Positions 43,211 to 43,957 of a DNA stretch of 64,000 nt are shown here, one piece after another. Position numbers and translations under genes: made by a program. This stretch comes from Candidatus Methylomirabilota bacterium (lineage in GTDB: Bacteria > Methylomirabilota > Methylomirabilia > Methylomirabilales > Methylomirabilaceae), in assembly GCA_003104975.1 (NCBI GenBank), contig PQAM01000017.1, positions 1 to 64,000 on the forward strand, given 5' to 3'. Numbering within the stretch: position 1 is the first letter of the stretch; the number at the start of each line of letters is the position of its first letter. A model generated the notes under the pieces. It ran no database searches and was not told the origin of the DNA. It worked only from the letters and a program-made list of their open reading frames with translations.

Positions 43211-43215
43211 AAAAG

Positions 43216-43319
43216 ACAGGGTTCGGGGTATAGGGTAGAAGGGTAAGGGTTAAATCGATAGTTCAACGATTTATTATTTGTCCTAGACCCCTAAACACCT
43301 AACCCCTATACCCCTGCTG
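43216..43319. repeat. Heptad inverted spacer, Pro-Arg
   Basis: Forward half GGGTTCG, GGGTATA, GGGTAGA, AGGGTAA, GGGTTAA; after about 40 unrelated bases the return half has AGACCCCTAAACACCTAACC and CCCTATACCCCTG. The halves are complementary, so the spacer can fold into one long stem. Confidence 0.85.
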
Positions 43320-43323
43320 TTTT

Positions 43324-43401
43324 GCGCCTGTAGCTCAGCCCGGACAGAGCAACGGCCTCCGGAGCCGTGTGTCGCCCGTTCAAATCGGGCCAGGCGCGCC
43401 A
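43324..43401 (+). tRNA. tRNA-Arg (CCG)
   Basis: Acceptor GCGCCTG/CAGGCGC, anticodon stem ACGGC/GCCGT with loop CTCCGGA (CCG), discriminator G, encoded CCA. Confidence 0.96.
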
Positions 43402-43407
43402 GTTTAA

Positions 43408-43486
43408 CAGTGAATAGTGATAAGTGGTCAGTGGTCAGGAAAAGAGCCCGCCGCCTTCACTAATTACTAGTCACTCATCACTGTTT
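43408..43486. repeat. Heptad inverted spacer, Arg-His
   Basis: Forward units AGTGAAT, AGTGATA, AGTGGTC, AGTGGTC; return units TTCACTA, ATTACTA, GTCACTC, ATCACTG. Same architecture as the neighbouring spacers but a different consensus. Confidence 0.85.
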
Positions 43487-43493
43487 TGCGAAT

Positions 43494-43569
43494 GGTGAGC
43501 GTAGCTCAATGGCAGAGCACTGGACTGTGGCTCCAGGGGTTGAGGGTTCGAGTCCCTCCGTTCACCCCA
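43494..43569 (+). tRNA. tRNA-His (GTG)
   Basis: Acceptor GTGAGCG/CGTTCAC with the extra G-1 opposite C73, the histidine hallmark. Anticodon loop CTGTGGC (GTG), encoded CCA. One base separates it from the next tRNA. Ends may be off by one. Confidence 0.95.
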
Positions 43570-43570
43570 C

Positions 43571-43647
43571 GCGCCCATAGCTCAGTTGGATAGAGCGCCG
43601 GACTTCGAATCCGTAGGTCGGGAGTTCGAGTCTCCCTGGGCGCGCCA
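43571..43647 (+). tRNA. tRNA-Arg (TCG)
   Basis: Acceptor GCGCCCA/TGGGCGC, anticodon loop CTTCGAA (TCG), discriminator G, encoded CCA. The first pair of the anticodon stem appears mismatched (C-U). Confidence 0.95.
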
Positions 43648-43654
43648 CGATAAG

Positions 43655-43756
43655 ACAGGGTTTAGGGCAGAGGGTGTAGGGTGTGGGGGACGAGACAGGA
43701 TTGCGGCTTGATTCGTTTAACCCGACACCCGACCCCCCTATACCCTACACCCCGTT
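43655..43756. repeat. Heptad inverted spacer, Arg-Arg
   Basis: Forward units GGGTTTA, GGGCAGA, GGGTGTA, GGGTGTG, GGGGACG; return half AACCCGACACCCGACC, CCCTATA, CCCTACA, CCCCG. Complementary halves around a roughly 30-base centre. Confidence 0.88.
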
Positions 43757-43761
43757 CTACT

Positions 43762-43838
43762 GCGCCCATAGCTCAGTCGGACAGAGCGGCTGCCTTCTAA
43801 GCAGTAGGTCGCAGGTTCGAGTCCTGCTGGGCGCGCCA
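43762..43838 (+). tRNA. tRNA-Arg (TCT)
   Basis: Acceptor GCGCCCA/TGGGCGC, anticodon loop CTTCTAA (TCT), T-arm CAGGTTCGAGTCCTG, encoded CCA. Third arginine isoacceptor in the cluster. Confidence 0.96.
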
Positions 43839-43844
43839 TGAAAA

Positions 43845-43950
43845 GATCGGGTGGAGGGTGTGGGGTGTAGGGTATAAAAACAGGATCCAAGTTTGGGAGG
43901 CGCGCCGTGCTTTTAACCCTATACCCTATACCCTAAACCCTATACCCTGA
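43845..43950. repeat. Heptad inverted spacer, Arg-Lys
   Basis: Forward units GGGTGGA, GGGTGTG, GGGTGTA, GGGTATA; return units CCCTATA, CCCTATA, CCCTAAA, CCCTATA, CCCTGAT. The clearest example of the family. Confidence 0.9.
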
Positions 43951-43957
43951 TGTCATG

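Follow-up and report, generated by a model that had tools for sequence, protein, structure and literature searches.

Heptad-repeat hairpins between tRNA genes of a Methylomirabilota bacterium resemble the repeat arms that frame S23 genes

S23 proteins (23S_rRNA_IVP, PF05635, TIGR02436, 'four helix bundle protein') and their relatives are widespread and their structures have been solved; to our knowledge, no function has been assigned to them. In the intervening sequence (IVS) of the 23S rRNA of Leptospira and Coxiella, complementary terminal arms form a long stem with the S23 ORF in its loop, and the IVS is excised from the pre-23S rRNA by RNase III (PMC4990558). The 5' arm of the Coxiella IVS carries tandem heptamers (GACAGAT) before the S23 ORF, and RNase III cleaves at the first heptamer (PMC4990558). 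A solved S23 relative, 2gsc, is reported to be a homopentameric ring of five four-helix bundles (PMC4990558). Bacterial heptads have also been described several times elsewhere, with no role assigned. The cyanobacterial STRR heptads include those in the P6b stem of the Nostoc tRNA-Leu(UAA) intron, where the two classes are exchanged for one another as whole units; that paper draws no link to S23 (PMC4476775). The repeats GGGAATC of Xanthomonas and GGGGA(C/T)T of Nostoc are non-coding and lie between aligned ORFs, with 70-75 convergent inverted pairs in Xanthomonas, and the authors proposed G-quadruplexes but left the role open (PMC4692102). The TAACTGA repeats of Beggiatoaceae, Cyanobacteria and Bacteroidetes are direct repeats just before start codons and are hardly ever inverted (PMC4679880).

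The window, i.e., the whole stretch of 64,000 nucleotides that was analysed here, is contig C17 of the 3.0 Mb genome of a Candidatus Methylomirabilota bacterium (G000). It was compared with 14 relatives in the genus, one of which consists of one contig only, 2,752,854 bases long. Six tRNA genes, all in the same direction, were located at 43134-44033 using ARAGORN and Rfam. Their positions, and the single base that makes up one of the five spacers, were as the original prediction had them. The cluster consists of the following features.

43134..43210, plus strand: tRNA-Pro(TGG), opening the cluster (ARAGORN, Rfam)
43211..43323, plus strand: spacer 1, AGGGTNT-class heptad hairpin of 113 nt, z -3.38, arms like those of S23 locus L061 of the same genome
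43324..43401, plus strand: tRNA-Arg(CCG) (ARAGORN)
43402..43494, plus strand: spacer 2, AGTGNNN-class heptad hairpin of 93 nt, z -4.20
43495..43569, plus strand: tRNA-His(GTG) (ARAGORN)
43570..43570, plus strand: His-Arg(TCG) spacer of 1 base; a hairpin of 56-100 nt in G003, G006, G009 and G013
43571..43647, plus strand: tRNA-Arg(TCG) (ARAGORN)
43648..43761, plus strand: spacer 4, AGGGTNT-class heptad hairpin of 114 nt, z -4.27
43762..43838, plus strand: tRNA-Arg(TCT) (ARAGORN)
43839..43957, plus strand: spacer 5, AGGGTNT-class heptad hairpin of 119 nt, z -4.65
43958..44033, plus strand: tRNA-Lys(CTT), closing the cluster (ARAGORN)

The lag-7 self-similarity of the four long spacers, in order, was 14, 17, 15 and 19 out of 21 positions. 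Their halves are complementary, and none of 200 dinucleotide shuffles folded as well as the spacers themselves (z from -3.4 to -4.7). These results confirm that four of the five spacers are self-complementary heptad hairpins, and the folding supports the expectation that the transcript would frame each tRNA with long stems, which abut the tRNA ends. The repeats are degenerate, and spacer 1 scores at lag 8 as well; some spacers, e.g., spacer 1, have an outer AAAA...TTTT. The consensus had been said to differ between spacers. This holds for spacer 2, whose AGTGNNN class stands apart, but spacers 1, 4 and 5 are all of the AGGGTNT class.

Like the rRNA IVS, these hairpins have complementary terminal arms that form a long stem. 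Unlike the IVS, they lie between tRNA or protein genes and not within a 23S rRNA helix, most of them are gene-less, and both arms are heptad arrays. The S23 ORF that an IVS holds is missing from the tRNA spacers, and no remnant of it was seen in any tRNA-spacer loop, but it is present in hairpins at other sites of this genome and of the genus.

The order of the tRNA cluster is kept in the genus, and largely in the taxonomic order too. A strict inverted-repeat detector overlooked degenerate hairpins, and lag-7 arrays were used instead. By the lag-7 threshold, heptads were found in 34 of the 36 genus tRNA spacers of 45-200 nt (94%), while only 0-6% of the same spacers passed the threshold at the control lags of 5, 6, 8, 9 and 11. 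Among other intergenic gaps of similar size, sampled over 400 kb each in G000 and its relative G006, heptads were present in 6-10% and 14-22%, respectively. The genus tRNA spacers had a median fold z of -3.0, and 27/36 were below -2. Hairpins of the same kind also occur between protein genes; by gap type, in the two sampled genomes, they were present in 14 and 24% of co-directional, 0 and 10% of convergent, and 3 and 6% of divergent gaps. Quadruplexes of the G-rich halves, as had been suggested, are possible for spacers of the GGG class. They are hardly the conserved property of the spacers, since four G3 tracts (the G4 motif) were found in 10/36 genus spacers only.

The class of an orthologous spacer is not fixed. 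The Arg(TCG)-Arg(TCT) spacer is of the GGG class in G000, G004 and G005, of the AGTG class in G013 and G014, and of the CAGC class in G001, G003, G006, G009 and G010, and such a change of class hits both arms together, as a unit. Pairing across classes is poor (median 13, vs 24-30). Within a class, however, covariation between the arms was absent: the own-partner pairing sum was 913, compared with 896 +/- 21 when arms of the same class were swapped. Because an arm pairs with its own partner no better than with other arms of its class, the two arms share a class and not single bases, and fine-scale covariation, i.e., pairing maintained base by base, was rejected on this swap test. The STRR heptads show the same picture of degenerate 7-bp tandem units whose arms form a stem and whose class is replaced as a unit at one site. 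They differ in that P6b is a domain of a group I intron with two classes, whereas here whole intergenic spacers and three or more classes are involved. The CAGC-type loop TCGCCTGGTCTTTCCTGA is common to several tRNA-cluster spacers of the relatives and was found only in genus tRNA clusters, besides look-alikes with two mismatches. This confinement points to local copying between spacers. The view that the spacers did not arise by copying of one spacer is supported for the present genome; in its relatives, local copying does occur. A loop shared genome-wide among the hairpins was not found, and copy-and-paste of whole hairpins is thus unsupported.

Heptad repeats occur genome-wide and are tied to S23 genes. 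Further arrays of the window are the following.

943..982, no strand given: lone C-rich heptad array, (AACCCCT)n, for which no clear partner arm is seen
54737..54769, no strand given: GGCTGAN/CAGC-class heptad array, best matches being genus CAGC-type S23 arms
59404..59521, no strand given: AGGCGNN-class heptad hairpin, z -6.06

The best match of the last of these among 112 S23 loci was an S23 gene of the same genome, L073 (G000:C3:15022; score 66). Elsewhere in this genome, the Asp-Val tRNA spacer carries an AGTG hairpin. A second tRNA cluster (G000:C18:140725-141367) has AGGGTAT-class repeats in its spacers.

On contig C8, an inverted heptad pair 400 bp apart encloses a PF05635 gene. In the genus, PF05635 genes are flanked by heptad arms that complement each other, and the repeat is specific to the subfamily: CAGCNAT at three separate sites, GTTTCGG at atpA/atpG, AGGGTTT at pyrG/kdsA, and furthermore AGGCGGG, AGGCTGA, AGTGGTT, GTTCAAC and others. 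For a wider comparison, protein similarity alone was used to choose 80 S23 loci in named genomes that cover many phyla. The arms were more complementary than shuffles (p<0.02) in 90 of the 112 testable S23 genes, vs 21 of 188 neighbouring ORFs (11%), and an arm score of at least 30 was reached by 68/112 and 18/188, respectively (Fisher p=3e-21); 20% of the S23 loci had no significant arms. Among the 82 classifiable arm pairs, 7 was the dominant period in 66, followed by 8 and 9, and the G-rich arm was the 5' arm in 69. Nearly all plasmid-borne S23 genes are cyanobacterial. All 14 of those examined have complementary repeat arms, so that the S23 link, absent from the STRR paper, holds for these cyanobacterial plasmid genes as well. 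Insertion of the S23 loci in 23S rRNA was rejected, as blastn gave no match between them and their own 23S rRNA.

Several of these loci have features of their own. Cyanobacterial plasmid S23 genes with heptad arms were found within operons, at nrdB-nrdA, cas6-cas4 (two species) and cas10-cmr3 (L305, L309, L310 and L314). In three species, the ATP synthase operon holds a GTTTCGG-armed S23 gene between its atpA and atpG genes (L066, L074 and L080), and the GTTTCGG heptads also code for a repetitive C-terminal tail of the S23 protein, NPKPETRNPKPETR. At L063, L064, L071 and L080, a complete small heptad hairpin precedes the S23 start and only one arm is found downstream. Self-complementarity was detected upstream of 31/112 S23 genes and downstream of 11/112. 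The upstream hairpin is possibly a leader for self-regulation.

The repeat type follows the type of S23 protein. When S23 loci whose flanks are non-homologous were paired, the similarity of the proteins was correlated with that of the arms (rho 0.19; the maximum of 500 label permutations was 0.10), and repeats were shared in 57% of the 60 closest such pairs vs about 3% of distant pairs. The S23 genes of L138 (Nitrospirae) and L140 (Lutibacter, Bacteroidota) both have period-9 AGGCACAAA arms, which suggests that gene and repeats were transferred together across phyla. Two of the loci recall repeats described by others. The S23 locus L148 has arms of GGGAATC, the Xanthomonas heptad, and belongs to Luteimonas, a related bacterium of the Xanthomonadaceae; the hairpins studied here are likewise G-rich heptads in part, but two of their three classes cannot form G-quadruplexes. 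The arms of the Phycisphaerae locus L163 are (TCAGTTA/G)n. They are to be compared with TAACTGA, which is also intergenic and patchily distributed, but was described as a direct repeat.

The hairpins of the tRNA spacers were compared with the arms of the 112 S23 loci. The best match of spacer 5 was L061 of its own genome (G000:C8:469916), with a score of 58 against a shuffled maximum of 26, and the same locus was the second-best match of spacer 4. Spacer 2 matched best AGTG/CAGT-type S23 arms from other phyla (L163 and L106). Across the tRNA spacers of the genus (family f1), the median best score was 39 to S23 arms of the own family, compared with 24 to the flanks of neighbour genes (p=8e-8) and 30 to S23 arms of other phyla (p=8e-5), and the tRNA spacers of family f3 also fitted own-family arms better than neighbour-gene flanks (p=6e-3); these p-values are optimistic because spacers and loci are phylogenetically related and their independence is overstated. 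The tRNA spacers of family f5 showed no match to the few S23 arms sampled from that family.

Gene-bearing and gene-less states occur at the same sites. Between pyrG and kdsA, an AGGGTTT-armed S23 gene is present in two genomes, and in several relatives the hairpin at this site, in most cases of the same class, has no gene. Between kdsA and msbA, three genomes carry a CAGC-armed S23 gene; elsewhere the site is occupied by an AGGGTAT hairpin or by a remnant of the CAGC type. Empty sites often retain remnants of the repeat, and the flanks of empty and filled sites are too diverged to show target-site duplications. At the level of families, S23 genes are absent or nearly so from f4 and f7 of the class, and these had no excess of lag-7 arrays (33, vs 32 expected from other lags), while the S23-bearing families had 172 vs 52 expected. 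The five f4 tRNA spacers contained no heptads. On the other hand, G006, G011 and G014 have hairpins and no detectable S23, which requires either that hairpins persist after loss of S23 or that S23 acts in trans.

From these results, the spacers of the tRNA cluster are probably gene-less members of S23-associated, IVS-like families of short-repeat (mostly 7 bp) hairpins, located in transcribed gaps. The gene-bearing members of these families hold an S23 gene between the arms. We read the hairpins as tolerated where intergenic gaps are transcribed, especially between tRNAs, and the preference for co-directional gaps fits transcription. The arms would pair in the RNA and could be cut, as RNase III cuts the rRNA IVS, and an insert between tRNAs would do little harm since the spacer is discarded anyway. 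With less assurance, the S23 protein may recognise a repeat hairpin of its own class, and one-class arrays may be spread or exchanged by recombination or by an S23-dependent step. Direct recognition of the hairpin would be a plausible step.

A serious rival to this explanation is that the dynamics are neutral: polymerase slippage would grow the heptads, template switching would turn the array into an inverted repeat, and S23 genes would merely insert or survive there. Heptamers are the favoured repeat length in bacteria, and slippage has been put forward as a mechanism (cited in both PMC4679880 and PMC4692102). The pairing is not conserved at fine scale, the loops differ across the genome, and the hairpins persist in genomes without S23, all of which speaks for a neutral process. 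Against it, the S23 subfamily predicts which repeat is present, even where sites are unrelated or phyla differ, families without S23 lack a lag-7 excess, and the G-rich arm comes first far beyond chance. We consider it less likely than not. S23-associated hairpin families remain the preferred reading, and the other alternatives are weaker.

The stems had been offered originally as possible processing signals, i.e., selected cleavage sites that free the tRNAs from a polycistronic precursor. The strong enrichment in tRNA spacers, the stems abutting the tRNA ends and the good folding would all suit such a role. But orthologous tRNA spacers can shrink to 1-25 nt without a hairpin, as the His-Arg(TCG) spacer did to 1 base in G000, G001, G004, G005 and G014. 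In the present genome, the tRNA spacers of Thr-Tyr-Gly-Thr, Gly-Cys and the rRNA Ile-Ala pair have no hairpin, and the same hairpins stand between protein genes. Together with the switching of class and the missing advantage of the own partner in pairing, these hairpin-less spacers and clusters leave the hairpins unsupported as a requirement for tRNA maturation, and selection for processing is improbable. It is more improbable still that they are copies of a REP/REPIN or MITE element mobilised by a transposase, be it Y1 (RAYT) or another. They are indeed dispersed intergenic hairpins, and some relatives have Y1_Tnp genes, but they have no fixed core sequence or loop and consist of degenerate heptads that differ by class, not of a conserved palindrome. 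With 0 Y1_Tnp matches in G000, a Y1 transposase is unlikely to have moved them here and a RAYT mover was rejected; a genome-wide MITE with a fixed loop was dropped because TCGCCTGGTCTTTCCTGA is confined to genus tRNA clusters. Least credible of all are bidirectional intrinsic terminators (A-run, stem, T-run), suggested by the outer AAAA...TTTT of some spacers but rejected because the gene context is wrong, with convergent gaps avoided and co-directional gaps favoured, and opposed also by the position within a tRNA operon, whose downstream genes a terminator would leave untranscribed, and by the many hairpins without a T-run.

A broader proposal, which goes beyond S23-associated hairpin families in this lineage, is put forward only tentatively, as less likely than not: that S23 lineages are sequence-specific partners of hairpins of their own repeat type, recognising it and helping to make, keep or move it, and that the rRNA IVS, cyanobacterial STRR, Xanthomonas GGGAATC and the tRNA-spacer hairpins form one bacterium-wide class of selfish hairpins on which S23 acts in cis and in trans. 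We found no description of a link between S23 and repeats in open-access papers; an earlier one may exist elsewhere. The rule that repeat type follows S23 type joins two things without an assigned role, S23 proteins and bacterial heptad repeats, and poses the testable hypothesis that the S23 ring binds the hairpin of its own repeat type, in RNA or DNA form. The rule would explain why the tRNA spacers in this lineage are filled with hairpins that vary between species, with no visible consequence for the tRNAs. Repeat hairpins of this kind also tie together several bacterial repeats that were described separately and left unexplained.

The S23 proteins of this genome also match, weakly, the model of Avd from diversity-generating retroelements. 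They differ from Avd in that the S23 genes here stand alone and several hairpin-bearing genomes have no detectable reverse transcriptase. Reverse transcriptase was rejected as an obligate partner, there being 0-2 per genome and none found in G001, G007 and G014. In one relative (G013:C28:5886-6994), a reverse transcriptase gene is directly followed by an S23/Avd-like gene, and this pair is probably a diversity-generating retroelement.
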